Assembly (NCBI RefSeq): GCF_001865245.1 | Contig: NZ_MKXB01000144.1 | Coordinates: 53,888-117,887 of the forward strand | DNA: 64,000 nucleotides | Source of the DNA: Streptomyces sp. CC53 | GTDB taxonomy: Bacteria; Actinomycetota; Actinomycetes; Streptomycetales; Streptomycetaceae | Direction: 5' to 3' | Shown: positions 40,413 through 55,886 of the stretch, piece by piece | Layout: the number at the start of each line of letters is the position of its first letter | Position numbering within the stretch: the stretch's first letter is position 1 | Translations under genes and position numbers: made by a program | Notes under the pieces: model-generated | Database searches by the model: none | What the model was told of the DNA's origin: nothing | The model's input: the letters and a program-made list of their open reading frames with translations, nothing else

Positions 40413-43400
40413 CCTCGGCCCCCCGCAGCCGCACCCGCGAGCCGTCGCGGCCCTTCACCACCTCCAGCTGGGCGGGGATGCGGCGGCGCAGGTCGGGGAC
40501 GTGGCTGACGATGCCGACGCTGCGGTCGCGTTCGCGCAGGCCGTCCAGGACGTCGAGGACCTCGTCCAGGGTGTGCTCGTCGAGGCTGCCGAAGCCCTCG
40601 TCGATGAAGAGGGTGTCGAGGCGGACGCCCCCGGCCTCGTCCGTGACGACGTCGGCCAGGCCCAGCGCGAGGGCGAGGGACACGAAGAACGTCTCCCCGC
40701 CGGACAGCGTGGCCGTGTCGCGTTCCGTGCCGGTCCAGGCGTCGACCACGTGCAGGCCCAGGCCGGAGCGCTTGGTACCGGCGCGGGCGTCGGAGTGGAC
40801 GAGGGTGTAGCGGCCGGCAGACATGCGCTGCAGGCGCGCGGTGGCGGCCGCGGCGACCTGTTCCAGTCGGGCTGCGAGGACGTAGGTCTCCAGGCGCATC
40901 CGCCGCTGGTTCTCGGCCGACGTTCCGGCGGTCAGTGTGGCGAGCCTGGCCAACCGGTCGTGATGGTCGCGCAGTGGTCCGAGGCGTCGCACCTCACGCT
41001 CCGCCTGGGCGGAGAGCCGGTCCAGCGCGGTGCACCGGTCGCGTGCGGCGGCAACGGCGGAGGCCGCGGCGCGGGCGGCGCGCTCGGCGGTCTCGTAGGC
41101 GGCGCGGGCCGCTTCCGGGTCGGGCTGCGGGCCCTCCGCGGCGGGCCGTGCGGTGTGCTCCGCGAGCCGGTCCGCGATGGCGGCGGACTCCGCCTGCCAG
41201 GCGTCGAGCCGGTGCTGCAGGTCGCGCTGCCGCCCGTCGTCGAGGAGCGCGGCGGCTGCCGCGTCGGGGGTGGCGAAGCCGGCGCGGTACGCGGCGTCCG
41301 CGAGCCGGTCGTCGGCTTCCTTCAGTCTGCGTGCCGTCTCCTCCACGGCGCGTACGGCGTCGGCGGCCCGCGCCACCGCCTCGATCTGCCGCTCCAGCTC
41401 GGCCGAGCGCTCGGCGACGGTGGTGGCCGCGGTTCCGAGGGCGCGCGCCAGGTCGGTGTCCAGGACGGCCTGCTGCCGGTCGAGGGCTTCTCGGCGGGAC
41501 GTGGCGGCCGCGAGGGCGAGGCGGGCCTGCTGCCGGGCGTCGAGCCGCAGGCCGTGTTCCTGCTCCGCCCGGCGGAGCTCTTCCCGCAGGGCGTGGCCGG
41601 TCGAGGCCAGCGCCCGTGTCTCGGCGTGCTCCGTCTCCAACACGTCTACGTGGTGGGCGAGTTCCGTCACGGTCGGTCCGGTGGGTACCGGCTCGCTCCC
41701 GGTCGGCGCCGCGCCGGCCGGTTCTGGTGCGGCGCGCTCGGGCGACTCGCCGGCGGCTTCGGCGGCCGCCGCGCCGTGCGTCTCCCGGAGGACGGCGAGA
41801 CGCCGCTCGGCGTCCGTGCGTGCCGCGTCGGCACGCGTGTGCTGTTCGTACGCCGCGTCCTCGGCCGCCCGGTCCACGTGGCCGTCCGCGGCAGCGGCGG
41901 GAGCCGGGTGGGTGGGGGATCCGCACACCGCGCAGGGGGCGCCGTCGGCCAGCTGGGCCGCGAGTTCGGCGGCGATGCCGCGCAGGCGGCGCTCACGGAG
42001 GTCCAGCCAGGTCTCGTGGGCGCGGTTGGCCGCCTCACGTGCGGTGGCGAGGCGCTCTTCGGCGGCCGTGACGTCCTCGGCGAGGGCGTCACGGCGGCGC
42101 GCGGCGGCGAGCCGGCGGCGGGCCGGCTCCAGACGGCCGGCCAGGAGCTCGGCGCGGGTCGCGGCGTCCTGCGCTGCCTCCGCCTGCTCCTGGAGCTCTC
42201 GCCGTCTGGCCTCCCAACCGGCCAGCCAGGCGTCGGCGTCCCGCAGGACCTCCTCGTCGGCGCGGGCCCTCCGGTCGAGTTCGGCGCGTTCCCGCACGAT
42301 CTCGGCCCGGCGCTGCTCGGCGACCCGGGCCGCTTCCACGGCGGCGAGCTCCTGTTGGAGTGCCCGGTCGCGTGCGGCGAGCCAGTCGGCCCCGGCGTCG
42401 GCCGGCTCGCCCGGGAGGGCGGCTGCGGCGCGGGTGCGCGCGGTGTCGGCGGCGCGGTGGGCGCGCTCCGCCTCGTCGCGCAGGGCGAGCGGCTCACCGA
42501 TGCGCTCGGCCCGGCGCGCCTCTTCCAGGCGGGCCTGCCACATGTCCCGCTCGCCGCGCCGGGCGTCGAGTGCGGCGGCGCGCCGGAGGGCGTCCTCGTG
42601 GCGCTGCCTGCGGGCGGCCCGCTCCTGCTCGTCCTCCAGGGCGCGGTGCGCGGCGGCCTGCCGGGATTCCGCCGCGCTCAGGGCGAGTTCGGCCGCGTCG
42701 CGGGCCTCGCGGGCCCCGGAGCGGGCCACGGCGGCCCAGGTCAGCACGGCGGCGGCGAGGCCGGGGTCGCCGGGCGTGCCCTCGGGGGCGGGCCAGCCGT
42801 CGGCGGCGCCTCCCGCCGCCTGGGCCATGCGGTGGGCGACGGCGAGGAGTTGCCGGTCGCCCGCCTCGACCTGCTGCGCGGCGGCGCGCCGCTGCTCGGC
42901 GAGGCGTTCCTCGACGGCAGCGAAGCGGCGGGTGTCGAAGAGCCGGCCGAGGAGTCTGCCGCGGGCTTCGGCGTCGGCGCGCAGGAAGCGGGAGAAGTCG
43001 CCCTGCGGGAGCAGCACCACCTGGCAGAACTGTTCGCGGTTCATGCCGAGGAGCTGGCCGATCTCCTCGCCGATCTCCTGGTGGGAGCGGCTGAGCCCCT
43101 TCCAGGTGTCGGTCCCGGGGTCGTGTGCCTCCAGCAGTGACTGGGCCTTCTCGGTGGTGAAGCCGCCGCCGCGCCTCTTGGGGCGGGGCTGGGCGGGGCG
43201 CCGCGTGAGCCTCAGCCGCCGTCCGGACACGGTCAGTTCGAGGACCACCTCGGTGGGTGTGCCGACGGGTGCGTGGTCGCTGCGCAGCGGGGCGGCGGGC
43301 GACTGGCGGGCGCCGGGCACGGAGCCGTAGAGAGCGAAGCAGACGGCGTCGAGTATGGACGTCTTTCCGGCGCCGGTGGCTCCGTGGAGCAGGAACAGCC

Positions 43401-43485
43401 CGGCGGTGGAGAGCGCGTCGAAGTCGATGTCCTGGCGGGCGCCGAAGGGGCCGAAGGCGGTGACCTGGAGTCGGTGGAGCCTCAT
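40402..43485 (-). CDS. sbcC: Exonuclease subunit SbcC (Rad50-like)
   Basis: A 1027-residue SMC-like ATPase which, with SbcD, cuts DNA hairpins and processes double-strand ends. Walker A is LLHGATGAGKTSILDAV (about residues 33-49); long Ala/Glu/Arg-rich coiled coils follow; the zinc hook is APCAVCGSPTHP (C-x-x-C) near the middle; signature and Walker B lie near the end (TLSGGETFFVSLALALGLAD and LDTLFIDEGFGSLDE). The ATG overlaps the sbcD stop in ATGA. Length is in the normal range. Confidence 0.95.
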   Translation of the reverse strand: MRLHRLQVTAFGPFGARQDIDFDALSTAGLFLLHGATGAGKTSILDAVCFALYGSVPGARQSPAAPLRSDHAPVGTPTEVVLELTVSGRRLRLTRRPAQPRPKRRGGGFTTEKAQSLLEAHDPGTDTWKGLSRSHQEIGEEIGQLLGMNREQFCQVVLLPQGDFSRFLRADAEARGRLLGRLFDTRRFAAVEERLAEQRRAAAQQVEAGDRQLLAVAHRMAQAAGGAADGWPAPEGTPGDPGLAAAVLTWAAVARSGAREARDAAELALSAAESRQAAAHRALEDEQERAARRQRHEDALRRAAALDARRGERDMWQARLEEARRAERIGEPLALRDEAERAHRAADTARTRAAAALPGEPADAGADWLAARDRALQQELAAVEAARVAEQRRAEIVRERAELDRRARADEEVLRDADAWLAGWEARRRELQEQAEAAQDAATRAELLAGRLEPARRRLAAARRRDALAEDVTAAEERLATAREAANRAHETWLDLRERRLRGIAAELAAQLADGAPCAVCGSPTHPAPAAAADGHVDRAAEDAAYEQHTRADAARTDAERRLAVLRETHGAAAAEAAGESPERAAPEPAGAAPTGSEPVPTGPTVTELAHHVDVLETEHAETRALASTGHALREELRRAEQEHGLRLDARQQARLALAAATSRREALDRQQAVLDTDLARALGTAATTVAERSAELERQIEAVARAADAVRAVEETARRLKEADDRLADAAYRAGFATPDAAAAALLDDGRQRDLQHRLDAWQAESAAIADRLAEHTARPAAEGPQPDPEAARAAYETAERAARAAASAVAAARDRCTALDRLSAQAEREVRRLGPLRDHHDRLARLATLTAGTSAENQRRMRLETYVLAARLEQVAAAATARLQRMSAGRYTLVHSDARAGTKRSGLGLHVVDAWTGTERDTATLSGGETFFVSLALALGLADVVTDEAGGVRLDTLFIDEGFGSLDEHTLDEVLDVLDGLRERDRSVGIVSHVPDLRRRIPAQLEVVKGRDGSRVRLRGAEVTG

Positions 43486-44675
43486 CGGGCTGCCTCCCGG
43501 ACGGGGTCTGCGGCCTCGCGTGCGGCGAGGTCGGCGCGTACGTCGGCGAAGGCTCCGTGCAGTGCGGCGCGTTCGCGGTCGTCGGGGGCGGACCCGCCCC
43601 GCACGTGGGCCACGAAGTCCTCGGCGATCTGGTGGTCGGTGCGCCCGTGGAGCCTGCGCGCGTAGGAGAGGTGCCGTTGTCCGTCGGCGCCGTCCTCGGG
43701 CGCGAAGACGAGACTGAGGATGTGCGGGAAGCGCCGGGCGAGGCGGGCCATAGGCTCGGCGGGCCGTACGGAGTCGGTGAGGGTGGCCTCCACCCAGGCG
43801 TCCTCGTGACGGTCGTGGGCGGGATCGTCGAGGAGGTCGGCGAGGGTGCCGCGGAGGCGGGCCAGCGGTCGGGGCACGGGGCAGTCGACGCGTGCGGCGG
43901 TGATCTCTCCGGTGGGCCCGAGGTCGACGAGCCACATCGTCTTGCGGTGGCGCCACTCGGAGAAGGAGTAGGCGAGCGGGGAACCCGAGTAGCGGACGCG
44001 ATCGGTGAGCGTCTGGCTGCCGTGCAGGTGGCCGAGGGCCACGTAGTCGACGCCGTCGAAGACACCGGCGGGCACCGCGGCGACGCCGCCGACGGTGATG
44101 TCCCGTTCGCTGTCGCTGGGCTCTCCACCGGCCACGAAGGCGTGGGCGAGGACGACGGAGCGGGTGCCGGCCGGGCGGGTTGCCAGGTCGGCGCGGACAC
44201 GTTCCATGGCGGCGGTGAGCACCGCCTCGTGTGAGGCCCTGCGGGCGCCGAGGCGCTGGCGCACGAGGGAGGGTTCCAGGTACGGCAGCCCGTAGAAGGC
44301 GACGTCGCCGTGTGGCGCGTCGGGCAGGACGACGGGTGTCCCGATGCCGTCGGGGTCGGTGCGCAGGTGGATCCCGGCGTGCTCCATGAGCCCCGAGCCG
44401 ACGCCGAGGCGCCGTGCGGAGTCGTGGTTGCCGGAGATCATCACGGTGGGCACGCCGGCGTCGGCGAGGCGGTGCAGGGCACGGTCGAAGAGCTCCACGG
44501 CGGTCAGCGGCGGTACGGCCCGGTCGTACACGTCCCCGGCGACGACCACCGCGTCCACCTCGTGGTCGCGCACGGCGGACACGAGGTGGTCGAGGAAGGC
44601 GGCCTGGGCGTCGAGGAGGCCGACACGGTGGAACGACCGCCCCAGGTGCCAGTCCGACGTGTGCAGGAGTCTCAT
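43482..44675 (-). CDS. sbcD: Exonuclease subunit SbcD (Mre11-like)
   Basis: A 397-residue metallophosphatase-type nuclease, partner of SbcC. The metal-binding motifs are in order: MRLLHTSDWHLGR at the start, VVAGDVYDRAVPP, MISGNHDSARRL, VVLAHAFVAGG and VALGHLHGSQ. The ATG at 44675 is chosen because the first motif begins right there, as in other SbcD proteins. The stop overlaps the start of sbcC by four bases. Confidence 0.95.
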   Translation of the reverse strand: MRLLHTSDWHLGRSFHRVGLLDAQAAFLDHLVSAVRDHEVDAVVVAGDVYDRAVPPLTAVELFDRALHRLADAGVPTVMISGNHDSARRLGVGSGLMEHAGIHLRTDPDGIGTPVVLPDAPHGDVAFYGLPYLEPSLVRQRLGARRASHEAVLTAAMERVRADLATRPAGTRSVVLAHAFVAGGEPSDSERDITVGGVAAVPAGVFDGVDYVALGHLHGSQTLTDRVRYSGSPLAYSFSEWRHRKTMWLVDLGPTGEITAARVDCPVPRPLARLRGTLADLLDDPAHDRHEDAWVEATLTDSVRPAEPMARLARRFPHILSLVFAPEDGADGQRHLSYARRLHGRTDHQIAEDFVAHVRGGSAPDDRERAALHGAFADVRADLAAREAADPVREAAR

Positions 44676-45092
44676 GATCGGTGAGGGTAGCGGCCGGGTC
44701 TGACAGCGGGGCCGCATCGGCCGACCGGGGCTGGGTATCGACGGTGCGGTCCACGTGGCGCGGGCACCGGATGGGGCTTCTGGTGCCGGTGTTGAGGGCA
44801 GGGCGGGGGCGGTGCCCGGCGGCGCAGGTGCCGCGGGCGACGCGGGGTCGGCGGCTGCGGTGCAGGGACCGGCCGGGGTCGGCGCCCCGATGCACAGGTG
44901 CTCCCGGCCTCGGGGGGCCGGGACGGCTGCCGGGGCCGCTCGCAGGACGGTGGTGCGGGCAGCGCCGCCGTGCGGGGAAAGACCGCGGGGTGCGGGAGGG
45001 CCGCGGGGCGCCGACCGGGTCGCTTACGAGCGAGGGGGAGCGGGCCCCGGTGCCCGGCCTCCTCGTGGTCGGCGTGGAGGATGTGGCGGGGC
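44676..45092. other. 417-bp intergenic region, no gene seen
   Basis: GC-rich stretch upstream of sbcD and downstream of the YigZ gene. It should contain the sbcDC promoter, but no strong box pair was found and no frame looks like protein. Confidence 0.4.
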
Positions 45093-45719
45093 TCATGCCT
45101 CGCCGTATGCTTCGCCGCCGAGCTCGCAGGTGGCGGTGCCGGCCGTGGTGTCGGCGAGCCAGCTGCGGAAACCGTCCACGTCCGCCTCCGGCAGCCCGAT
45201 CTCTATCCGGACCGCGTCGCCGTACGACACGTCGCGGACGGCGCGTCCGGTGGCCCGCAGGTCGTTCTGGAGCTTTCCCGCACGCTGGTGGTCCACGGTC
45301 ACGGTGGCCAGGCGGTAGCGTCGGCGGGTGACGGTGCCGAGGGCGTCGAGCGCCTCGCCCACCACACCGCCGTACGCCCGGATCAGACCGCCCGCGCCGA
45401 GCTTGACGCCGCCGTAGTACCGCGTGACGACCGCCGCGACGTACCGCACGTCGCGGCGCAGGAGCATCTGGAGCATGGGGACGCCCGCGGTGCCGCCGGG
45501 TTCACCGTCATCGGATGCCTTCTGCACGGAGGCGTCGGCTCCGACCACGTAGGCGTAGCAGTTGTGGGTGGCGGTCGGGTGCTCCTTGCGGATGCGGGCG
45601 ACGAAGTCCTGCGCTTCCTGCTCCGTCGCCGCGGGGGCCAGCGCGCAGAGGAAGCGCGAGCGGTTGATCTCGGTCTCGTGCACGCCCTCGCGGGCCACCG
45701 TCAGGTACTGCTCCTGCAT
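45093..45719 (-). CDS. YigZ/IMPACT family protein
   Basis: A 208-residue protein of the IMPACT/YigZ family. The N-terminal UPF0029 domain shows RSRFLCALAPAATEQEAQDF, NCYAYVVGAD and the signature DDGEPGGTAGVPMLQMLLRRD, followed by VVTRYYGGVKLGAGGLIRAYG; the C-terminal DUF1949 domain fills the remainder. Family members are thought to bind nucleic acid or translation factors; the bacterial role is not settled. Start at 45719 (ATG). Confidence 0.92.
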   Translation of the reverse strand: MQEQYLTVAREGVHETEINRSRFLCALAPAATEQEAQDFVARIRKEHPTATHNCYAYVVGADASVQKASDDGEPGGTAGVPMLQMLLRRDVRYVAAVVTRYYGGVKLGAGGLIRAYGGVVGEALDALGTVTRRRYRLATVTVDHQRAGKLQNDLRATGRAVRDVSYGDAVRIEIGLPEADVDGFRSWLADTTAGTATCELGGEAYGEA

Positions 45720-45743
45720 CCGGCCACCCTAAACCCGCGGGTC

Positions 45744-46157
45744 TCACGGCCGTCCCGCGGCGTCGGCCGCCGCCTGTTCGTCGAGGCGCCGGCGGGCTTC
45801 GCTCCAGGCGACCGGCAGGTCTTCGGCGGCCGCCTCCCAGAAGGTGAAGGTGGAGGCGCGCATGGCGGGGCGGAGGTCCCGCATGGTGCCGCGGTGCGGC
45901 TCGGCGCGGGCGTACGCGTAGAGGGCGTCGCGGTCGCGCCAGGCGGAGAGGGTGAGGAAGGTGCGCCGGAAGGGCTGCGCGACGAGGGAGGCCCCGTAGG
46001 CGCCGGGCGCGCGCTTCACCTGCCGCCAGGCGGCAAGGGACCTCAGGAGGAAGCCGGGCACGTCCTTGAGCGAGCGGACTTCGAAGCGGGAGGCCATGAC
46101 GTAGACGGGGGCGCGGGGCGGGGCGGGGTGGGGTGTGATCCAGGGCAGGGCGGGCAT
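45744..46157 (-). CDS. DUF3291-like protein (monooxygenase-fold)
   Basis: A 137-residue protein of the DUF3291/spheroidene-monooxygenase-like type, a dimeric alpha-beta fold that often binds heme or a small ligand. Visible family features are VYVMASRFEVRSLKDVPGFL, TLSAWRDRDALYAYARAEPH and STFTFWEAAAEDLPVAWSEA. No function is established for the family. The ATG at 46157 follows GGAGGAGACCGGC. Fifteen bases upstream begins a large perfect inverted repeat holding two operator copies, so the gene is probably tightly repressed. Confidence 0.78.
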   Translation of the reverse strand: MPALPWITPHPAPPRAPVYVMASRFEVRSLKDVPGFLLRSLAAWRQVKRAPGAYGASLVAQPFRRTFLTLSAWRDRDALYAYARAEPHRGTMRDLRPAMRASTFTFWEAAAEDLPVAWSEARRRLDEQAAADAAGRP

Positions 46158-46172
46158 GCCGGTCTCCTCCAA

Positions 46173-46216
46173 GCGGATAGTGGCACTATCTATTTCTAGA
46201 TAGTGCCACTATCCGC
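46173..46216. promoter_or_regulatory. Perfect 20-bp-arm inverted repeat containing two 15-bp palindromic operators
   Basis: The arms at 46173-46192 and 46197-46216 are exactly complementary around the loop TTTC. Each arm itself contains a 15-bp palindrome, GATAGTGGCACTATC on the left and GATAGTGCCACTATC on the right, so a dimeric repressor could bind twice. The element lies 15 bp before the DUF3291 ATG, and the TAGATAG sequence in its centre could be a -10 box on the minus strand. It resembles a TetR- or MarR-type double operator. No regulator gene is adjacent. Confidence 0.85.
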
Positions 46217-46404
46217 TCTGGAGGCCAAGCCCCTTCTCGGCCCGGACCGCGGGAAGGATCGCCTCGGGCGGAGCACACCGGCGGGCTTGGCCGCGCAGGG
46301 AAGGGCGTAAGGAATGCGACACGGGCGCGGGTGGTTGGCCAGAACGGAAGATCAGGGACGAGGATCCGTGGCCGGCAGCATCCCGGCCGTTCAGGAGGCG
46401 GCAC

Positions 46405-46839
46405 ATGTCCACGCACGCGGAGAGGGCCACCGGGACGGGCGACCGGGAGACGGCACGCAAGATCCTGAGGGAGCTGGGTGACACCTGGGCCGTCGTGGGG
46501 CTGTCCGAGAACCGCGCCCGCGCGGCGTACGGGGTGGCACAGCTCCTCCAGACACTGGGCAAGAGGATCGTGCCCGTGCACCCGAAGGCCGAGACCGTAC
46601 TGGGCGAGCAGGGGTACGCCTCGCTGGCCGACATCCCGTTCCCGGTGGACGTGGTGGACGTGTTCGTCCGCAGCGAACTGGCGGGCGCCGTGGCCGACGA
46701 GGCCGTGGCGAAGGGTGCGAAGGCGGTCTGGTTCCAGCTCGGCGTCGTGGACGACGACGCTTACGCCCGCACCCGGGCGGCGGGACTGGACATGGTGATG
46801 GACCGCTGCCCCGCCATCGAGGTCCGGCACCTCGACTGA
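46405..46839 (+). CDS. CoA-binding protein (YccU-like)
   Basis: A 144-residue Rossmann-type CoA-binding protein. The fold is seen in TWAVVGLSENRARAAYGVAQ (about residues 27-46), KRIVPVHPKAETVLGEQGY, PVDVVDVFVRSELAGAVADE and AKAVWFQLGVVDDDAY. A Cys in MDRCPAIEVRHL near the end is typical of the family. It binds CoA; no catalytic role is known. It is divergent from the DUF3291 gene, so the operator at 46173-46216 might touch its expression too, though 190 bp separate them. Confidence 0.9.
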   Translation: MSTHAERATGTGDRETARKILRELGDTWAVVGLSENRARAAYGVAQLLQTLGKRIVPVHPKAETVLGEQGYASLADIPFPVDVVDVFVRSELAGAVADEAVAKGAKAVWFQLGVVDDDAYARTRAAGLDMVMDRCPAIEVRHLD

Positions 46840-47131
46840 GGGGTCCCTCGCGAGCCGGGGAGCGGCAGGCGGGCTGAGCGATTGGCCTGGGGGCCGCACG
46901 GGTCGGACCCAGGACCGGCCGTGCTCGTCCGGAGCCGTGGCCCCGACGGGCCAGGGGGATGCGCGCCGCCGGCGGCCCGGCCCTCGGGGGGCGGGTCGAT
47001 GGCTCAGGGGAAGTGGGCGGCCCTCCGCGGCCGGCCGGTCCGCCCTCCGGCCGGCCGCCCGCGTCGCGGAACCACCGCAGCACCGCCCCGCGCACCGCGC
47101 CACCCACCGCGGCGCCACCGGAAGCGGGCTG

Positions 47132-47371
47132 TCCCAGCCGCCGGCCCCAGACCGCGGGGTCCACGTTCCAGACGTCCGGCAGTACGCCGCCGCAGAAGAC
47201 ACAGCCGCAGAAGACACAGAAGAGGTCGCCCTCACGGACGATGCTGTGCTCCTGGCAGGCCGGGCAGCGACGGAAGACCACCTCGCGGGTGAACCCGGAC
47301 GGAGGGTCGGTCCCGACCCGGTCCAGGGCGTCGGCGACCGACCCCCAGGACCCGGCGACGCCGTGCGGCAT
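47132..47371 (-). pseudogene. Zinc-ribbon ORF with a 15-bp duplication, probably decayed
   Basis: Downstream of the heliorhodopsin on the same strand, an ATG at 47371 opens MPHGVAGSWGSVADAL..., then a zinc ribbon: FRRCPACQEHSIVREGDL, then FCVFCGCVFCGG and VLPDVWNVD. The second knuckle is doubled by an exact 15-bp tandem duplication (47189-47203 and 47204-47218), giving two C-V-F-C units. After about residue 75 the frame has no stop for another 250 codons and becomes low-complexity, running over the CoA-binding gene, so the natural end seems lost. Related single zinc-ribbon proteins are common in streptomycetes. Whether the short form is made is unclear. Confidence 0.55.
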
Positions 47372-47475
47372 GCCCGGCGGTGGGATGGGTGACGCCGCGC
47401 CCGGAGGCCCTCTCGGGCGGCAGGCCGTGATCACGAACTCCGTCGCACCGGTCCCCGGCCGGCGGCGAACGCGAC

Positions 47476-48258
47476 TCAGTCGGCCAGCGAGCCGGCGAAG
47501 ATCTGCCAGGCCAGCAGCGACTTCGCCACGAGGCTGAGGACCAGGTACGCCTTCTCTCCGTACGCGTAGTCGGACCAGCGGCCCACCCCGCGGTACTGGA
47601 GCCACTGATTGAGGCCGAAGCTGAAGAACAGGGCCGCCTGGACGAGGACGATCCCGTAGACGAAGCCGGGCACGGTCTCGGCCGCGAGGACGTTGTACGC
47701 GATCGAGACCCACGGCGCCACGCCGACCAGCGTGCCGAACCAGAACGGGAGCATCGTGGTCGCCGTCCGTCCCGGCGGGTTCATCACCTCCTCGATCCAG
47801 CCGAAGAGAATCATCCCGATGTTCGCTCCGGCGACGGCGATGACGGCGTTGACACCGGTGACGCCCGCGTAGAAGCCGATGAGGAGGACCATCAGGGTCG
47901 CGCTGAGCGCGTACTCCGCCCACCGGAAGCGGTTGACGCCGCGCCTGAGGTCGCGTTCGTAGGTGCCGCGGCACACGGTCGCCGTCAGCAGGTGGTCCAG
48001 TGCCGCGAGAGCGAGGAAGACGGCGACGGCCCAGCCGACCGGCACGTCGAACAGCGCCTCGGGGACGGGTGCCGCCGTCCCGGGCGGCCCCTCCGGCACG
48101 GACGACGTCACCGTGATCGAGAAGCTCCCGGCGAGCAGGACGACCGCCGCGGCCTGCACCAGGTGCAGCACGGTGAGGCCCAGGTTCCACGCGCGCAGCC
48201 CGGCGAGTCGTTCCGGTGTCACACCGGTGGCCACCGGTGTGGGGTCCGTCGTGCTCAC
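47476..48258 (-). CDS. Heliorhodopsin
   Basis: A 260-residue seven-helix retinal protein of the heliorhodopsin class, which sits in the membrane inverted relative to type-1 rhodopsins and is thought to be a light sensor rather than a pump. The retinal Schiff-base lysine is Lys246 in SLVAKSLLAWQIFAG, the Glu counterion is Glu115 in FRWAEYALSATLMV, and the two His of the inner cavity correspond to His32 and His89 (ALDHLL). Further class marks are FWFGTLVGVAPWVSIAYN and YAYGEKAYLVLSL. The GTG start at 48258 follows GGAGGA. No carotenoid, retinal-synthesis, histidine-kinase or photolyase gene is in the window; a zinc-ribbon ORF follows on the same strand. Confidence 0.93.
   Translation of the reverse strand: MSTTDPTPVATGVTPERLAGLRAWNLGLTVLHLVQAAAVVLLAGSFSITVTSSVPEGPPGTAAPVPEALFDVPVGWAVAVFLALAALDHLLTATVCRGTYERDLRRGVNRFRWAEYALSATLMVLLIGFYAGVTGVNAVIAVAGANIGMILFGWIEEVMNPPGRTATTMLPFWFGTLVGVAPWVSIAYNVLAAETVPGFVYGIVLVQAALFFSFGLNQWLQYRGVGRWSDYAYGEKAYLVLSLVAKSLLAWQIFAGSLAD
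48220..48241. repeat. Perfect 22-bp palindrome within the first codons of the heliorhodopsin gene
   Basis: CACACCGGTGG (48220-48230) is followed directly by its reverse complement CCACCGGTGTG (48231-48241). With no spacer it looks more like a protein-binding site than an RNA hairpin. It covers codons 6-13, about 15 bp inside the gene. Confidence 0.8.
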
Positions 48259-48565
48259 GATTCCTCCAGGGGCCGGCGCCGCACCACCTCCGCATGCTCG
48301 TAGCGGTCCGGGCGTCGGTCACGGCTGCCGGGCCCCGCCACGCCGGAAGTCCCCCGAGTGGCGCCCCGGGCCGCCGCCGCACCGGCGCCCGTGACGCCGC
48401 GCCCTCAGCGCAAGGCCGGGCGGACAGTCGCGCGAGCGCGGGCAGCGGCGGCGTGGACGGCGCGTGGCCGCGTCCGGGGGCGCGCGTCGGCAGGCCGCAG
48501 CGTGCCGCCCGTACGGCGGGCGGGGAGACCGCCGCAGGCAGTGACGCCTCCGCCGCCCGAGTGGC
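48259..48565. other. 307-bp intergenic region upstream of the heliorhodopsin
   Basis: No gene seen. The heliorhodopsin promoter should lie in the first 150 bp. No clear boxes were found, so an alternative sigma factor is possible. Confidence 0.4.
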
Positions 48566-49138
48566 TCAGCGGACCGGCGGGACCGAGATCGCCATGGTCA
48601 TCTCGACCGGTTCCCCTCCGTCGTTGCGGTAGGCGTGGGGCACATGGGACTCGAAGACCGCGGACGTGCCGGCCGGCACCCTGTGTTCCACCCCGTCTAC
48701 CACCAACGTCAGCACGCCCGCCGTGACGTGCAGCAGTTCCGTCGTGCCCTCGCGGTGCGGGTCGGAGGGGCTGGCGTCGCCGGGCGCGAGCGTCCACGCC
48801 CACAGCTCCAGCGGACCCCGGGCTTCCGTGCCGACCAGGAGGGTTGTGCGGCTGCCCGCCTCGGTGGACCACATGCGGACCGCCTGCTCCGGCGGCACCA
48901 GCCGGACCTGCGGCCCCCGTTCGTAGTCCAGCAGGGTCGTGAGGGACACGCCCAGCGCGTCGGCGAGCTTCACGGTGGTGCCGACGCTCGGGTTCGTCCT
49001 GGCCTGCTCGATCGCGATGATCATGCCCCGGCTGACACCCGCGCGGGCGGCGAGGGCGTCCAGCGTGAAGCCCCGCTCGCCGCGCCAGTGCTTGAGGTTG
49101 CGGGCGAGCGACTGGGTGAGCTGATCGAGGTCAGACAC
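48566..49138 (-). CDS. XRE-family regulator with cupin domain
   Basis: A 190-residue regulator. An XRE helix-turn-helix at residues 8-62 (LARNLKHWRGERGFTLDALA, AGVSRGMIIAIEQARTNPSV) is joined to a C-terminal cupin (about 95-185: HREGTTELLHVTAGVLTLVV, VPAGTSAVFESHVPHAYRND), which should bind a small effector. This layout usually governs a divergent transporter or metabolic gene, here the EamA exporter. The GTG at 49138 is preferred for a GGACGG site; a TTG 11 codons upstream remains possible. Confidence 0.88.
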   Translation of the reverse strand: MSDLDQLTQSLARNLKHWRGERGFTLDALAARAGVSRGMIIAIEQARTNPSVGTTVKLADALGVSLTTLLDYERGPQVRLVPPEQAVRMWSTEAGSRTTLLVGTEARGPLELWAWTLAPGDASPSDPHREGTTELLHVTAGVLTLVVDGVEHRVPAGTSAVFESHVPHAYRNDGGEPVEMTMAISVPPVR

Positions 49139-49174
49139 ATTCCGTCCAATATTCTGGATGACAGAGTTCAATGG

Positions 49175-49192
49175 AGTGCACTACGGTGCACT
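49175..49192. promoter_or_regulatory. Inverted repeat between the XRE-cupin and EamA genes
   Basis: AGTGCAC (49175-49181) and GTGCACT (49186-49192) are perfect arms with a four-base spacer. The element lies between the divergent starts at 49138 and 49229. GCAC half-sites recur a few bases further on. It is the best candidate operator for the XRE-cupin regulator. Confidence 0.65.
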
Positions 49193-49228
49193 GCACCCAC
49201 TGTTCACCGCACTGTACTGCGAGGCCCC

Positions 49229-50101
49229 ATGACCGCCCTGTTCGCCCTGGCCACCAGCCTGCTCTGGGGGCTGGCCGACTTCGGCGGCGGGCTGCTCACC
49301 CGCCGCACACCGGCCCTGACCGTGGTCGTGGTCTCCCAGACCCTGGCCGTGGTGGTGCTCGGCGCGGTCGTCGTGGCGACCGGCGGCTGGACCGAGGCCG
49401 GCCCCCGGCTGTGGTTCGCCGTGGCCGCGGGCGTCCTGGGCCCGGTGGCCATGCTCGCCTTCTACAAGGCCCTCGCACTCGGCCCGATGGGTGTGGTGTC
49501 CCCGCTGGCCTCGCTGGGCGTCGTCGTCCCCGTGTCGGTCGGCCTGGCCACGGGCGGCGGGCCCGGGCCCGTCCAACTCGCCGGGGTCGCCGTGGCCGTG
49601 GCCGGCGTGGTGCTGGCCGGCGGACCGGAGCTGCGCGGGGCACCGGTGCAGCGGCGGACAGTGCTGCTGACCCTGGTCGCGGCCTTCGGCTTCGGCGGGG
49701 TGATGGCGCTGATCGCCGAGGCGTCCACGACCCTGACCGGCCTCTTCCTGGCGCTCTTCGTGCAGCGGGTCACGAACGTCGCGGTCGGCGGCACCGCCTT
49801 GTGGCTGTCCGTACGGCGCGGCGGCCGTGCCCTGCCGGAAGGCGCCGGGAGCCTGCGCGCGCTGCGGGGCTCGCTGCCCGCGCTGGCGTTCGTCGGGCTG
49901 GCGGACGTGGCCGCCAACGGCACGTACGCGATCGCCGCCCAGAGCGGCCCGGTCGCCCTCGCCGCGGTCCTCGCCAGCCTCTACCCGGTGGTGACGGCGC
50001 TCGCCGCGCGCGGTGTCCTCAAGGAGCGGCTGCGCGCGGTCCAGGCGGCGGGCGCGGGGCTGGCCCTGGCGGGCTCGGTGCTGCTGGCCACAGCCGGCTA
50101 G
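49229..50101 (+). CDS. EamA/DMT-family transporter
   Basis: A 290-residue permease with ten predicted membrane helices in two five-helix EamA repeats. LFALATSLLWGLADFGGGLL opens the first repeat, FYKALALGPMGVVSPLASL closes it, and YAIAAQSGPVALAAVLASLYPVVT is the typical end of the second. Substrates of this family are amino acids, metabolites or drugs. The ATG at 49229 is preceded by GAGG. The stop overlaps the stop of the convergent acyltransferase gene. Probably controlled by the divergent XRE-cupin regulator. Confidence 0.9.
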   Translation: MTALFALATSLLWGLADFGGGLLTRRTPALTVVVVSQTLAVVVLGAVVVATGGWTEAGPRLWFAVAAGVLGPVAMLAFYKALALGPMGVVSPLASLGVVVPVSVGLATGGGPGPVQLAGVAVAVAGVVLAGGPELRGAPVQRRTVLLTLVAAFGFGGVMALIAEASTTLTGLFLALFVQRVTNVAVGGTALWLSVRRGGRALPEGAGSLRALRGSLPALAFVGLADVAANGTYAIAAQSGPVALAAVLASLYPVVTALAARGVLKERLRAVQAAGAGLALAGSVLLATAG

Positions 50102-50877
50102 GTACGGGCGGCCCCGGGGGCCTGGCTGGGCCGGACCTGCTGCTCCCAGGCGGCGAGCGCGGCCAGCTGGGCGGCCGTCACATGGTCCGGTATCGGCTCG
50201 GGAGCGGGCGTGCGCAGCGGCGGCTGCCAGCCGTCGCGGGGGTCCCAGCGCCGTACCACCCGGGCCGGGGCGCCGGCCACCACCGCGTGGTCGGGGACTT
50301 CGCCCCGCACGACGGCGCCGGCCGCCACCACGACGTTGCGGCCGAGCCGCGCGCCGGGGAGGATCACCGCGCCGGTACCGAGCCAGCACCCGGAACCGAT
50401 CTCGACGGGGGCGGAGCGCGGCCACTGCCGGCCTATGGGCTCGTCCGGGTCGTCGTAGCTGTGGTTGGTCGACGTGATGTAGACGTACGGGCCGCAGAAG
50501 GTGTCGGCACCGATCACGACGGGCGCGTCCGCGACGACGTGGCTGCCGCGCCCGAGGACGACGCCGTTGCCGAGGGTCACCACGGGGTCGGGTCCCAGGT
50601 CGAGCCCGGGGAGCATGCCGGCGCTGAGCGTGACCTGCTCGCCGATGATGCAGCACTCCCCCAGTTCGATCCACTGCTCACCGAACACCGCCCCCTGGGG
50701 GAAGGCCAGCTTCGTGCCCGCGCCGATGCGCCGGAACCGCAGCGGTCCCGGGCGCTCCGCGGTCACCGCGCCGGTCTCCTGCACCCACCGCCAGCCGCGG
50801 TGCACCGCGCGGGACAGGGTGCGCCGGCGCCAGGCGGCGAGCGTCGCGGAGGAGAACACGTTTCTGTTCCTGGGCAC
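50098..50877 (-). CDS. Hexapeptide-repeat acyltransferase
   Basis: A 259-residue left-handed beta-helix acyltransferase of the maltose/galactoside O-acetyltransferase type. Hexapeptide repeats with I/V/L-G at every sixth place run from about residue 60 to 200 (CIIGEQVTLSAG, VVLGRGSHVVADAPVVIGAD, GAVILPGARLGRNVVVAAGA). The active-site His lies in YITSTNHSYDDP, and VVAGAPARVVRRW is the standard ending. The acceptor is unknown. The GTG at 50877 gives the N-terminus seen in relatives; a GTG six codons later has a better AGGA site. Confidence 0.88.
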   Translation of the reverse strand: MPRNRNVFSSATLAAWRRRTLSRAVHRGWRWVQETGAVTAERPGPLRFRRIGAGTKLAFPQGAVFGEQWIELGECCIIGEQVTLSAGMLPGLDLGPDPVVTLGNGVVLGRGSHVVADAPVVIGADTFCGPYVYITSTNHSYDDPDEPIGRQWPRSAPVEIGSGCWLGTGAVILPGARLGRNVVVAAGAVVRGEVPDHAVVAGAPARVVRRWDPRDGWQPPLRTPAPEPIPDHVTAAQLAALAAWEQQVRPSQAPGAART

Positions 50878-51025
50878 CCGGACACCGTAGTGGGCCCGAT
50901 CGTCGCTGGTCAGGCCACGGGCTTGTGATGTTCGCCCCACCGCGCCGCGGGCGTTGTGCGGCGCGTGGCATACGGTTCGGTCGGGCGCGACGTGGTGGCG
51001 CGAACACGAGGAGTGGGGGCCGACG

Positions 51026-51556
51026 ATGACGGAACGACCGCTGATCGCCGCGGTGGGCGGCAAGGAACCGCAGGTGGACGGGGGCGCCTTCGCCGCGCCG
51101 ACATCCGTGGTGGTGGGCGAGGTGACGTTGGCCCGTGGGGCGAGCGTCCGGTACCACGCCGTGCTGCGCGCCGACTGCGGGCCGATCACCCTGGGCGAGA
51201 ACAGCAACATCCAGGACAACTGCACCGTCCACGTGGACCCCGGGTTCCCGGTCACGGTGGGCGCCGGGGTGTCCGTCGGCCACAACGCGGTCCTGCACGG
51301 CTGCACCGTCGAGGACGACGTGCTGATCGGCATGGGGGCCACGGTCCTGAACGGCGCCCACATCGGGGCGGGCTCGCTGGTCGCCGCACAGGCGCTGGTA
51401 CCCCAGGGGATGCGGGTCCCGCCCGGGTCGCTGGTCGCGGGGGTGCCGGCCCGGGTGAGGCGGGAGCTGACCGAGGAGGAGCGTGAAGGCATCCGGCTGA
51501 ACGCGGCGATGTACGGAGAACTGGCCCGCGCCCACCGGGAGGCCCACGGCTCCTGA
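51026..51556 (+). CDS. Gamma-carbonic-anhydrase-like hexapeptide protein
   Basis: A 176-residue left-handed beta-helix protein of the gamma-carbonic anhydrase/PaaY type. RYHAVLRADCGPITLGENS, NIQDNCTVHVDPG and VSVGHNAVLHGCTVEDD bring the three His expected to bind the metal (in CTVHV, GHNAVLH). GMGATVLNGAHIGAGSLVAAQ and LVAGVPARVRREL end the helix. Activity as carbonic anhydrase is not certain for this subgroup. ATG start at 51026. Confidence 0.9.
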   Translation: MTERPLIAAVGGKEPQVDGGAFAAPTSVVVGEVTLARGASVRYHAVLRADCGPITLGENSNIQDNCTVHVDPGFPVTVGAGVSVGHNAVLHGCTVEDDVLIGMGATVLNGAHIGAGSLVAAQALVPQGMRVPPGSLVAGVPARVRRELTEEEREGIRLNAAMYGELARAHREAHGS

Positions 51557-51740
51557 GGCGCCGCCCGGGGCTGAACGCGCCGACGACGGACACGGGGTGG
51601 CGGACACGCGGCCCTTACGCGGCCCCGCGCGGCTCCCCCGGCGGCCGTACGAGACCGCGTGCGGCGACGCGGCCCTGGCGCTGGGCCCCCCTACCCGCGG
51701 TAGGCGGCGGGCCCGGTGCCGTGGGGCCGGTGCGGCGCGT

Positions 51741-52547
51741 TCAGTCGGTGCCGACGGCCGCCGGTACGCGCCCCCCGCCGTCCGAGGGGTTGCCCTCCGC
51801 GGCAGCGCGCTCGCCGGTCGACCGGACGCCCTCCGCGGCGCTGCCGGACGGCGCCCCGGCCTCGGCGGTGGCCCCGCTGCCCGAGCGCGCGCCGGCCGCG
51901 GGGGCCGGTGCCGTCGCGGCGTGCTGCGCCTCCGTCGTGGCCGCGGCGGCCTTCTTGGCCCGGTGCTTGAGGACCAGCAGTGACGTGAGCCCGACCGCCA
52001 CCGCCAGTACGAGGCCCAGCCAGGAGAACCGCTTGAGCCATGCCTCGGCGACGACGCCGACGGAGTAGACGACGGCCGTCGTGCCGCCCGCCCACAGGAT
52101 GCCGCCGAAGACGTTGGCGAGGAGGAACTTCCAGTACGGCATGCGGAGCACGCCGGCCAGCGGGCCCGCGAAGATCCGCAGCAGGGCGACGAAGCGGCCG
52201 AAGAAGACGGCCCACACGCCCCACTTCTCGAAGGACCGCTCGGCCATCGCGATGTTGGCCTCGCCGAAGTGCTTGGGGAACCTGGTGCCCAGCCGGGCGA
52301 GCAGTGGCCGCCCGCCCTTGCGACCGATGGCGTAGCCGATCGAGTCGCCGATGATCGCCCCCGCCGTCGCGCAGGCGCCGAGCACGTACGGGTCGATGTC
52401 GCCGTGCTGGGAGGCCAGGAGGGCGGAGCTGACGAGGACGATCTCACCGGGCAGGGGGATGCCCAGGCTCTCCAGTCCGATCACCGCGCCCACCAGGACG
52501 TAGATGGTGAGCGGGGGGACGGTCTCCAGCCACTCCTGGACGTGCAA
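51741..52547 (-). CDS. DedA family membrane protein
   Basis: A 268-residue DedA/SNARE-associated-type protein. LESLGIPLPGEIVLVSSALLA (about residues 25-45), GDSIGYAIGRKGGRPLL and FFGRFVALLRIFAGPLAGVL are the family motifs, the last with the conserved Arg pair. About five membrane segments are followed by a cytoplasmic Ala/Gly/Pro/Ser-rich tail of about 70 residues. DedA proteins are now linked to polyprenyl-phosphate flipping and proton-motive-force maintenance. The TTG at 52547 is preceded by GGAGGA and is the only start with a proper site. Confidence 0.9.
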   Translation of the reverse strand: MHVQEWLETVPPLTIYVLVGAVIGLESLGIPLPGEIVLVSSALLASQHGDIDPYVLGACATAGAIIGDSIGYAIGRKGGRPLLARLGTRFPKHFGEANIAMAERSFEKWGVWAVFFGRFVALLRIFAGPLAGVLRMPYWKFLLANVFGGILWAGGTTAVVYSVGVVAEAWLKRFSWLGLVLAVAVGLTSLLVLKHRAKKAAAATTEAQHAATAPAPAAGARSGSGATAEAGAPSGSAAEGVRSTGERAAAEGNPSDGGGRVPAAVGTD

Positions 52548-52750
52548 GGCCGGTTCCTCCGTCTGTCTGCCTGCGGGATGAGGTGGTGATCGCTGATGCG
52601 GTCGTCCGGTGCGAGCCGCGCCTGCCGTGCGGGCGGGTCCGCTGCGGGCCGCCGCCCGGCTTTCGACGGCGCCCCGGCGCGTACCGGGCCGTGACCACCG
52701 GGGAAGACGGGCGGAGCACCGCCGGGGTTGCCCCGTACGGGAAAGATACC

Positions 52751-52787
52751 GGCCCCCGTCACCGGCCGGGGGGCGGTGACGGGGGCC
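52751..52787 (-). terminator. Strong hairpin after the hotdog thioesterase gene
   Basis: A 13-bp stem is perfect: 52751-52763 pairs with 52775-52787 around an 11-base loop. On the minus strand it is followed by TATCTTTCCC, a weak pyrimidine run. It lies 48 bp past the end of the thioesterase gene and before the DedA gene, so it separates the two. Confidence 0.75.
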
Positions 52788-52834
52788 GAAGGGCCGGTCG
52801 GGGTCCGCGGCGGTCGGCAGCGGAGGCCGGGGCG

Positions 52835-53287
52835 TCAGGCGTTCGGGCGCAGGGTCCAGGTGATGACCATCTCGCCCGTCACGGCCCCGTCCTCCCGGGT
52901 GATCGCGATGTGCACGGGGAACTCGGGGCGCTGCCCGGCGTCCAGTTCGGCGAGGACCTCGTCCCGGGTGCGGCCCAGGGTGGCGGTAGCGGTGACGACG
53001 CCCATCGCGAGCTTCTTGTAGGCGATCTCGGCCTTGACGGCGAGTGGCACGGCCCGCCCCATCTGGTCGCCGAACGCGCCGATGACGATGGCGCCGCTCG
53101 CGGACTCGCCGAGGGTGAACATGGCGCCGGCGTGCGGGCCCCCGACGTGGTTGTGGAAGTCCTTCTGGTCGGGCAGGCGCAGCACCGCGCGGTCGGCGGT
53201 GGCCTCGACGACGTCCAGGTTCAGGGTCTTGGCCATGGGAACGGTGGCCAGCAGCATCTCGCCGATGTTCGGCAGCGTCTCGGACAT
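52835..53287 (-). CDS. DUF4442 hotdog-fold thioesterase-like protein
   Basis: A 150-residue single-hotdog protein. NHVGGPHAGAMFTLGESASG (about residues 46-65) has the pattern around the conserved His and Gly of the hotdog helix, and VKAEIAYKKLAMGVVTATAT is the central strand pair. Such proteins probably hydrolyse acyl-CoA esters, although DUF4442 activities are little studied. ATG start at 53287. It stands alone, bounded downstream by a strong terminator. Confidence 0.88.
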   Translation of the reverse strand: MSETLPNIGEMLLATVPMAKTLNLDVVEATADRAVLRLPDQKDFHNHVGGPHAGAMFTLGESASGAIVIGAFGDQMGRAVPLAVKAEIAYKKLAMGVVTATATLGRTRDEVLAELDAGQRPEFPVHIAITREDGAVTGEMVITWTLRPNA

Positions 53288-53391
53288 GGGCCGAAGTTAC
53301 CAGGCGGTAGCATCCGTGCATAACCCTGCTCCGTGCCGCTGCCCGGGGGCGGCCGTGGCACGCGTCACCCCTCCCTCTATGGTTACTGGCC

Positions 53392-54438
53392 ATGTGGCCA
53401 GGACAGCAGCCGCCCGGGGGCGAGCAGAACCCGCAGGACCAGAACGCGCCGAACCCCTACCAGCAGCAGGGGTACCAGCAGCCGAACCCGTACCAGCAGC
53501 ACCCGGGGTACCAGCAGCCCGGCTACCCGCAACAGGCGGGCTACGGCCAGCCGAACCCGTACCAGCAGCCCACCGCCCCGCAGTACGCCGTGCCCGGCCA
53601 GCCGCCCGCGGCCGCGCCGCCGGCCTCCGGCAGCCGCAGGACCACGGTGGTCGTCGCGACCGCGTCCGCCCTGGCCGTCCTGACCACCGCCGGGGTGACC
53701 GGGTACGTGGTGCTCGGCGACGACGGCAAGGAGCCGGTCGCCAAGCCCGGCGCGAAGCCCGCGGCGAGCGTCTCCGCTCCGGCCGACCCGACCCCCTCCG
53801 CCGTCGACAACCCGCGCGCGGGCGACGGGGCGGCGCAGCCGACCATCCCCGGGTGGAAGGTCGTCTACAACCCCAAGTACGGCACGCTGTTCGACGTGCC
53901 GGGCGACTGGGAGGTCAGCGGCTCCGGCAACATGCACATCGTGACGGACGAGAAGGAAGGCGGCGCCGCCGCCTTCAACGTCATGTCGGCACCGGCGTAC
54001 TACAAGAGCGAGTGGTGCTCCTACGACGCCGAGAAGGACGGCACCGCCGACACGTGGGGGCTCGCCTCGACCGGCACCAAGGGCGGCCAGGGCGCCAAGG
54101 ACACCGGCAACGCCGCGCTGAACGAGGCCGGCACGTGGGCCTGGTCCCAGGCGCAGGACGAGCCCAAGGAGAAGGTCAAGCTCGGCAAGCCCGCCCCGTA
54201 CACCACCACGTCCGGCCTGACGGGCCACGTGGCCACGGCGAAGACCGAGAACACCAAGCACGAGCACAAGTGCGACACGGAGACCAAGGCCATCGCGTTC
54301 TCCTTCAAGAACGCGAAGGGCGACTTCTCCACCTGGTGCCTCTACGGACCGACGGGCGTCAAGGACGAGCTCCCGGAGGCCACGATCCAGAAGATCCTGA
54401 GCACCGTGCGGCTCGCGGACGAGCAGCCGAAGCAGTAG
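53392..54438 (+). CDS. Single-pass membrane protein with Tyr/Gln/Pro-rich N-terminus
   Basis: A 348-residue protein. Residues 20-65 are a repeat-rich cytoplasmic tail of the N-P-Y-Q-Q and G-Y-Q-Q-P type. One membrane helix follows (TVVVATASALAVLTTAGVTG, about residues 84-103), then a Pro/Ala linker and an extracellular domain with WKVVYNPKYGTLFDVPGDWE and several conserved cysteines (SEWCSYDAE, HKCDTETKA, FSTWCLYG). The type is common in streptomycetes with no assigned role. A TATGGT -10 box about 10 bp before the ATG suggests a leaderless mRNA. Confidence 0.85.
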   Translation: MWPGQQPPGGEQNPQDQNAPNPYQQQGYQQPNPYQQHPGYQQPGYPQQAGYGQPNPYQQPTAPQYAVPGQPPAAAPPASGSRRTTVVVATASALAVLTTAGVTGYVVLGDDGKEPVAKPGAKPAASVSAPADPTPSAVDNPRAGDGAAQPTIPGWKVVYNPKYGTLFDVPGDWEVSGSGNMHIVTDEKEGGAAAFNVMSAPAYYKSEWCSYDAEKDGTADTWGLASTGTKGGQGAKDTGNAALNEAGTWAWSQAQDEPKEKVKLGKPAPYTTTSGLTGHVATAKTENTKHEHKCDTETKAIAFSFKNAKGDFSTWCLYGPTGVKDELPEATIQKILSTVRLADEQPKQ

Positions 54439-54569
54439 GCGCCGCGCCCGCGGGCCCCGGGTGGACGGCCGGCGAGAGGCCCGAAGCGGCACCGGGCCCA
54501 CGGGAGACCACCGGGTGCGCCACCGGCGAGCGAGTCCCGCGGGATCCCGCCGCCTGACAGGTATTCCGT

Positions 54570-54599
54570 TTGGCGGCGGGCCCCCGCACGGGCGATAGT
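54570..54599 (+). promoter_or_regulatory. Promoter for a leaderless MFS transcript
   Basis: TTGGCG (54570-54575) and GATAGT (54594-54599) are 18 bp apart. Transcription would begin at or next to the GTG start codon at 54606, and no Shine-Dalgarno sequence is present. Confidence 0.55.
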
Positions 54600-54605
54600 C
54601 CGCGT

Positions 54606-55886
54606 GTGAGAAAGCCCGCCGCCCAGCGCAACTACCTGCTGCTGACCGCCTCCGCGGTCGTCACCAACCTCGGCACGCACGGAGCCCTCATCGCGGCGGC
54701 GTTCGCGGTGCTGGAGACCGGCGGCGACGCCGGGGACGTCGGGCTCGTGGCCGCCGCGCGCTTCCTGCCGCTGGTCCTCTTCCTCCTCATCGGCGGCGCC
54801 GTCGCCGACCGGCTGCCGCGGCACCGGGTCATGGTCGCGGCCAACACCCTGAACTGCGTGTCGCAGGCGGTCTTCGCGGCCCTCGTACTGTCCGGCACCG
54901 CCGAGCTGTGGCACATGATGGTGCTGACCGCGCTGTGCGGCACCGGACAGGCGTTCTTCAGCCCCGCGGCCGAGGGCATGCTGATGTCCAGCGTCACCGG
55001 GGAGCACGCGGCCCGGGCGTTCGCACTGTTCCGGATGGCGATGAACGGCGCCACCATCGGGGGCGCCGCGCTGGGCGGCGCCCTGATCGCCGCCTTCGGA
55101 CCCGGCTGGGTCCTCGCCGTCGACGCGGCCGCCTTCGCCGTGGCGGGAGCCCTGCGCGCCTTCCTCGACGTGAGCCACATCCCCGAGCGGACGCCCGGCG
55201 GCGGTCTGCTGGCGGACCTCCGGGAGGGCTGGCACGAGGTCGCGAGCCGTCCCTGGCTGTGGTCCATCGTGGCCCAGTTCTCCGTCGTCGTGGCCGTCGT
55301 CGGCGCCGCCGAGTCCGTGTACGGGCCTCTCGTCGCCCGCGACGCCCTGGGCGGGGCGCGGCCGTGGGGCATCGCCCTGGCCGCCTTCGGCGCGGGCACC
55401 ATCGGCGGTGCGCTGCTGATGCTGCGCTGGAAACCGCGGCGGATGCTGCTCGTCGGCACGCTGTGCGTGTTCCCTCTGGCGCTGCCGTCGGCGGCGCTGG
55501 CCGTGCCCCTCCAGCTGCCCGGCCTGATGGCGGCGATGTTCGTGTGCGGAGTGACCCTGGAGGTGTTCGGCGTGGCCTGGATGACCGCGCTGCACCAGGA
55601 GATACCCGAGGAGAAGATGTCCCGGGTCACCGCGTACGACTGGTTCGGCTCCACCGCCATGCTGCCGCTGTCGACCGCGCTGGCCGGCCCCGCGGAGGAG
55701 CTCTTCGGGCGCCCGCAGGCGCTGTGGGGCTGCGTGGCGCTGATCGTGCTGGTGACCGCGCTGGTCCTGCTCGTCCCCGACGTGCGGAACCTGACGCGGC
55801 GGACGAAGGAGGTCGCGGCGGGCGTCGGGGCGCCGGCCGGGGCCGTGTCAGCCGATGCCGAAGGCGCCGCCGGGCGGGACCGGTGA
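54606..55886 (+). CDS. MFS transporter
   Basis: A 426-residue permease of the major facilitator superfamily, MFS_3-like, with about 12 helices. LIGGAVADRLPRHRVMVAAN is the loop 2-3 motif, and LCGTGQAFFSPAAEGMLMSS with RAFALFRMAMNGATIGGAAL are typical of the macrolide-exporter-like subgroup. The GTG at 54606 gives a short N-terminus directly before the first helix. The last 39 bp overlap the convergent spermidine-synthase-like gene. Likely efflux of an unknown compound. Confidence 0.88.
   Translation: MRKPAAQRNYLLLTASAVVTNLGTHGALIAAAFAVLETGGDAGDVGLVAAARFLPLVLFLLIGGAVADRLPRHRVMVAANTLNCVSQAVFAALVLSGTAELWHMMVLTALCGTGQAFFSPAAEGMLMSSVTGEHAARAFALFRMAMNGATIGGAALGGALIAAFGPGWVLAVDAAAFAVAGALRAFLDVSHIPERTPGGGLLADLREGWHEVASRPWLWSIVAQFSVVVAVVGAAESVYGPLVARDALGGARPWGIALAAFGAGTIGGALLMLRWKPRRMLLVGTLCVFPLALPSAALAVPLQLPGLMAAMFVCGVTLEVFGVAWMTALHQEIPEEKMSRVTAYDWFGSTAMLPLSTALAGPAEELFGRPQALWGCVALIVLVTALVLLVPDVRNLTRRTKEVAAGVGAPAGAVSADAEGAAGRDR

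Follow-up and report, generated by a model that had tools for sequence, protein, structure and literature searches.

A solo heliorhodopsin gene in Streptomyces that appears to travel with its own upstream region

The Heliorhodopsin Locus

We analyzed a 64,000-nucleotide stretch of the Streptomyces sp. CC53 genome (the window), to which all coordinates refer unless another locus is named. A heliorhodopsin (HeR) gene lies on the minus strand, in exactly the open reading frame singled out by an earlier note on this DNA, between genes for a CoA-binding protein and a cupin-HTH regulator. The locus comprises the following features:

46405–46839, plus strand: CoA-binding protein, one flank of the insertion (Pfam and site comparison)
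47153–47350, minus strand: zinc-ribbon remnant (sequence comparison; place counted by hand)
47189–47218, minus strand: 15-bp tandem duplication within the remnant (place counted by hand)
47476–48258, minus strand: heliorhodopsin coding sequence, 260 aa, GTG start (open reading frame, profile matches, and invariant residues)
48256–48366, minus strand: upstream block including the start codon, candidate promoter and leader (alignment and leave-one-out profile search)
48263–48267, minus strand: ribosome-binding site GGAGG, 5–9 bases 5′ of the GTG start (read directly from the sequence)
48338–48362, minus strand: most conserved part of the block (place counted by hand)
48566–49171, minus strand: cupin-HTH regulator, the other flank of the insertion (Pfam and site comparison)

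Two curated heliorhodopsin models match the window protein over its whole length: Pfam PF18761 (E 1.4e-93; 313 bits against a cut-off of 26.7) and the NCBIfam HeR equivalog NF038020 (E 7.8e-77; 258 bits against a cut-off of 100). The nearest solved structures are the heliorhodopsins 9ljj and 48C12 (6su3), aligned over residues 16–258 at E ~7e-62, and the identity proposed in the earlier note is thereby firmly supported. With 48C12 (PDB 6su3, 6su4) and the actinobacterial heliorhodopsins, the protein shares a whole-length match (E 7e-62) and the positions of the retinal lysine, counterion, and histidines. In the alignment register, H32, H89, E115, and K246 correspond to positions 23, 80, 107, and 241 of the 48C12 chain, and we take their functional roles to be those of the aligned 48C12 residues. 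All four had been named as diagnostic, and they are indeed invariant, together with S119, L126, and S242, in nine of nine streptomycete copies.

The E-S-L motif of heliorhodopsins is spaced by 4 and 7 residues. Both this TM3 motif (E115, S119, L126) and the SxxxK retinal-lysine motif of TM7 (S242/K246) are present, as described for the class (PMC9601134; this and all papers below are cited from the portions of their texts available). Codon comparison indicates purifying selection, with a median dN/dS of 0.19 over 20 pairs that include the window copy and 0.24 over 210 pairs. On these grounds we regard the product as a bona fide heliorhodopsin with its retinal-lysine and counterion residues in place; alignment to 48C12 further implies a predicted inverted topology with a cytoplasmic N-terminus. 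The host genome (6.98 Mb, 239 contigs) holds a single heliorhodopsin copy, and no type-1 rhodopsin was matched in it by a family model that matched 1 of 24 genomes and 0 control genomes.

That a Streptomyces genome should encode a heliorhodopsin, as the earlier note held, is already published. The protein of Streptomyces sp. CC77 has been expressed and purified and absorbs at 553 nm (PMC7807009), and that of S. pini has been aligned with others (PMC9529153); both come from the same genus as the window copy, and the copy in the S. pini genome is 88% identical to it in the best segment. Neither paper, in its available portions, discusses the genomic context of the Streptomyces genes, their mobility, or the source of their retinal, and in the portions of open-licence papers that our literature search covered, no study addressed horizontal movement or retinal supply of Streptomyces heliorhodopsins. 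More unusual is the apparent mode of spread: among streptomycetes, HeR seems to pass from species to species accompanied only by the region upstream of it, and most of the hosts have no recognizable retinal-forming enzyme.

The Insertion Site Is Empty in Two Relatives

A search of 61 genomes with the window's 3-kb region yielded the corresponding site from 13 relatives. In all 13, the regulator and the CoA-binding gene lie near each other with no HeR between them. Among the nine gaps examined, six contain a related gene of ~185 aa and one contains another gene; two (in G025 and G028) are empty, the flanking genes lying 26 and 36 bp apart, so that by site comparison the window's insertion site is vacant in these two relatives.

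Scanning 14 predicted neighbor genes from 39966 to 55886 gave no match to a kinase or retinal-synthesis family, in agreement with the earlier note. Pfam matches identified an EamA transporter, hexapeptide transferases, a VTT-domain (DedA-type) protein, DUF4442, an MFS protein, UPF0029, the CoA-binding protein, and an AsnC-type regulator; one protein (53392–54438) had no match and another fell below its Pfam cut-off. The scan also revealed an SbcC-like and SbcD-like pair at 40402–44675 on the minus strand.

An Upstream Block Accompanies the Gene

A block of ~110 bp upstream of HeR was found in 18 of 23 streptomycete loci by leave-one-out profile search (E 1e-8 to 1e-26), and the full profile recovered it in three further copies (L014, L015, L016). 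Visual inspection had led us to omit five loci (L052, L054, L056, L057, L062) from the block alignment, and the later profile search found no block in them, nor in 8 other actinobacterial loci. In S. toyocaensis (L052), which lacks the block that its syntenic relative L046 has, the heliorhodopsin gene lies directly behind another gene. In a whole-block search of 392 genomes, 7 HeR loci scored E ≤ 2.3e-16, and every other match had E ≥ 1.9e-5; the search is not exhaustive, because it missed G057, both of whose HeR copies carry the block.

Similarity collapses just 5′ of the block, from a mean difference of 0.226 inside to 0.493 outside. Taken over its full length, the block differs about as much as four-fold sites do (0.226 vs. 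0.214), being the more conserved of the two in just 70 of 153 pairs. Clear extra conservation is confined to its first 26 columns (mean pairwise difference 0.128 vs. 0.214 at four-fold sites), and any function of the block therefore rests on this one element. We infer a putative promoter and leader. A simple scan, which covers the sigma-70 type only, found no promoter of that type. An RNA element was considered and rejected: the window gave no Rfam match at gathering scores, and the consensus fold of the block had a covariation term of only −0.27.

Heliorhodopsin Genes Are Sporadic and in Conflict with rpoB

Within the genus, HeR is sporadic: of 392 genomes, 8 carry it, with 9 copies in all. 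Using the streptomycete alignment to scan genomes, an approach that reaches closer relatives only, we obtained 37 named HeR loci, 22 of which we counted as streptomycetes; two metagenome-assembled genomes titled Streptomycetaceae (L065, L066) were by judgement not so counted, being A+T-rich and of freshwater type. One partial match (L072) was left out of the context set. The window and the 22 loci fall into 13 groups by shared flanking DNA within ~6 kb, a number that is the same at 500, 1000, and 2000 bp and rises to 17 at 5000 bp. None of the other 22 loci shares flanking DNA with the window copy, and on the downstream side sequence similarity between HeR loci mostly stops at the stop codon. 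One genome (G057) carries two copies (L015, L016) as a ~1.03-kb unit of 99% identity in unrelated contexts; one copy lies ~15 kb from its contig end, and inspection by eye showed no obvious terminal repeats of the unit. Plasmid or phage carriage of the streptomycete gene was rejected, since plasmid records hold only two distant HeRs (Chloroflexota, Lactococcus) and none from a streptomycete, and phage records hold no HeR.

We compared HeR with rpoB across 21 streptomycetes and Geodermatophilus, leaving out L040, L055, L056, and L057. Among streptomycetes the mean four-fold differences were 0.257 for rpoB and 0.266 for HeR, and the two were correlated (rho 0.42). Individual pairs depart widely: HeR differs by 0.030 where rpoB differs by 0.264 (L041–G149) and by 0.025 where rpoB differs by 0.149 (L048–L049), with the reverse conflict in L043–L044 (HeR 0.205, rpoB 0.056). 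The L048 and L049 loci also have 5.7 kb of upstream flank in common at 98.4% identity; given the rpoB difference of 0.149, a longer segment seems to have moved in that case. On HeR data, approximately unbiased (AU) tests rejected two rpoB groupings (p 5e-5, 0.002), left one borderline (p 0.054), and did not reject one (p 0.42), and the single test on rpoB data rejected the HeR grouping (p 1e-31); because the groups were picked with the trees already in view, all these p values err on the optimistic side. Several of the tests, though not all, thus set the HeR tree at odds with rpoB, which points to horizontal movement of HeR.

If the gene were instead inherited vertically within Streptomyces, often lost or relocated but seldom transferred, this would account for the correlation of HeR and rpoB distances, for the four sets of streptomycete loci that share flanks of more than 5 kb, and for the clade test that does not reject the rpoB grouping as well as the borderline one. 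Set against such a history are the strong AU conflicts on both data sets, near-identical HeR genes where rpoB differs and the reverse, and the empty sites in relatives, and we consider it improbable. We think it probable, though well short of assured, that the gene moves horizontally among streptomycetes and as a rule does so self-contained: one gene and the ~110 bp upstream of it, with no partner transferred alongside. On the same reading, the retinal would be scavenged or come from an unrecognized route, and the partner would be encoded elsewhere.

Retinal Supply and Proposed Function

A whole-genome check for a carotenoid-cleavage oxygenase and crt genes, suggested by the earlier note, found the second and not the first. 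In the window genome, carotenoid genes are clustered (polyprenyl synthetase, two amine-oxidase-type desaturases, SQS_PSY, and lycopene cyclase, together with a photolyase-related gene), and neither the BCD/Blh nor the RPE65-type family gave a match. The BCD model matched 6 of 37 genomes and 0 of 14 control genomes. We assembled 24 streptomycete carriers (22 genomes plus G057 and G149; carrier sets overlap, some genomes were reached twice, and L046 was left out of the BCD/RPE65 search), among which BCD was found in 1, RPE65 in 3, and neither in 20. Carriers are not enriched for RPE65, which occurs in 1 of 8 carriers vs. 10 of 16 noncarriers.

Lycopene cyclase behaves differently: 19 of 24 carriers have a strong crtY match (E < 1e-80), vs. 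12 of 34 noncarriers (Fisher p 0.001, uncorrected for relatedness). A hand classification of crtB from unpaired strong SQS_PSY matches gave 7 of 8 carriers vs. 4 of 16 noncarriers (Fisher p 0.006); of the two comparisons we prefer crtY. One carrier, Streptomyces sp. DH37 (G425:C216; L151:370-2400, L189), has a type-1 rhodopsin gene immediately adjacent to one of blh type (BCD), and these are the only type-1 rhodopsin and the only BCD among the 24 streptomycete carriers searched.

The most likely reading is that the window heliorhodopsin is a self-contained photoreceptor, its retinal scavenged or unconventionally made and its partner encoded elsewhere. All-trans retinal would be bound at K246, by analogy with a Streptomyces homolog that was purified with added retinal. 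The retinal itself might be scavenged, or made from host beta-carotene by an unrecognized route; HeR-bearing freshwater actinobacteria have been suggested to depend on retinal from outside (PMC12422013). If the protein resembles that of CC77 (PMC7807009), it should absorb green light near 553 nm, and such light would drive a slow photocycle. The signal may then pass by protein–protein contact to a host protein encoded elsewhere, as in other heliorhodopsins.

A more specific version is possible, and we advance it only tentatively: streptomycetes may exchange a minimal photoreceptor cassette, consisting of the gene and its own promoter, that would work in any host. Its partner would be a core streptomycete protein, or none would be needed, and retinal would come from carotenoid cleavage outside the BCD and RPE65 families.

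The nearest solved relatives of the window protein include 48C12, which is not known to transport ions, and E115, S119, L126, and S242 form the usual heliorhodopsin set; both points count against a light-driven ion transporter in place of a sensor. A stand-alone transporter would nevertheless look like a solo gene with no conserved partner, and the viral heliorhodopsin V2HeR3 does transport protons (PMC9448325), so we leave this function a small chance. About equally unlikely is that the protein is a passenger, either without function or left as an apo-protein because no retinal reaches it. Such a passenger would suit the 20 of 24 carriers in which no known retinal-forming enzyme was matched, but it sits poorly with the intact frame, the invariant binding residues, and the dN/dS of 0.19. 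The question of retinal supply becomes testable in hosts that have lycopene cyclase but match neither known retinal-forming family.

Neighboring Genes as Candidate Partners

Elsewhere in the streptomycete set, four copies (L043, L045, L050, L053) lie 4–7 kb from genes presumably of carotenoid type. Five others (L037, L041, L048, L049, L060) have a MarR-like HTH gene and a gene that we take to be TerC-like nearby, in varying order and orientation; an HTH gene related to the MarR-like one is also found near the Geodermatophilus copy (L063). Because these five loci have such genes, and because TerC is among the frequent neighbor groups of published heliorhodopsins (PMC11109279), some HeR copies may have a local partner.

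Published partners are glutamine synthetase (PMC9529153), photolyase (PMC9769723), and the ABC transporter OmrDE (PMC11109279). The likeness to our proposal is the suggested light-dependent regulation of another protein. The difference lies in context: as far as the available texts go, the glutamine synthetase partner is in the same operon (PMC9529153) and the OmrDE work began from flanking genes (PMC11109279), whereas no conserved neighbor was found for the window copy. Likewise, 18.8% of actinobacterial heliorhodopsins are predicted to lie in operons with neighbors (PMC11109279), whereas the window copy stands alone. Guesses at what a heliorhodopsin does are usually drawn from the genes around it. 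In streptomycetes this guide largely fails, because HeR mostly moves without neighbors; this suggests that the partner is a core protein, which could be recovered in a genus as amenable to genetics as this one.

The window itself offers two same-strand candidates. The earlier note had described a zinc-ribbon open reading frame as the only same-strand neighbor: the strand is right, but it is not the only one, as the cupin-HTH regulator lies on the same strand 307 bp upstream of the heliorhodopsin gene. Proximity and shared strand could suggest that regulator and heliorhodopsin act together. The regulator occupies the same site without HeR in 13 relatives, however, and at other loci HeR has different neighbors, which makes such cooperation very unlikely.

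The zinc-ribbon frame lies ~100 bp downstream of the heliorhodopsin gene. Its matches are confined to the 3′ half of a ~134-aa protein found in five other streptomycetes. The frame lacks the family's N-terminal half, encodes CVFCG twice through a 15-bp duplication at the second Cys knuckle, and runs past the family's end; we interpret it as a decayed remnant. By tblastn (E up to 0.1) it was absent from the 37 named HeR loci, from eight other first-fetched loci, and from the same site in 13 relatives, and the zinc ribbon was rejected as a conserved HeR partner. The possibly new signaling route that the earlier note had suggested for this neighbor is thus not supported. Although archaeal Znf-HeR fusions exist in Thermoplasmatales (PMC8612252) and share with the window a zinc ribbon near a heliorhodopsin, their ribbon is, in the available text, a fused N-terminal domain, unlike the window's separate, truncated, and disrupted downstream fragment of a gene found elsewhere without HeR, and signaling through the adjacent ribbon protein is scarcely credible. 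The related frames at L146:2982-3386 and, in similar form, in L147–L150 make up a small zinc-ribbon family that falls below the Pfam cut-off and is scattered among streptomycetes in varied contexts.
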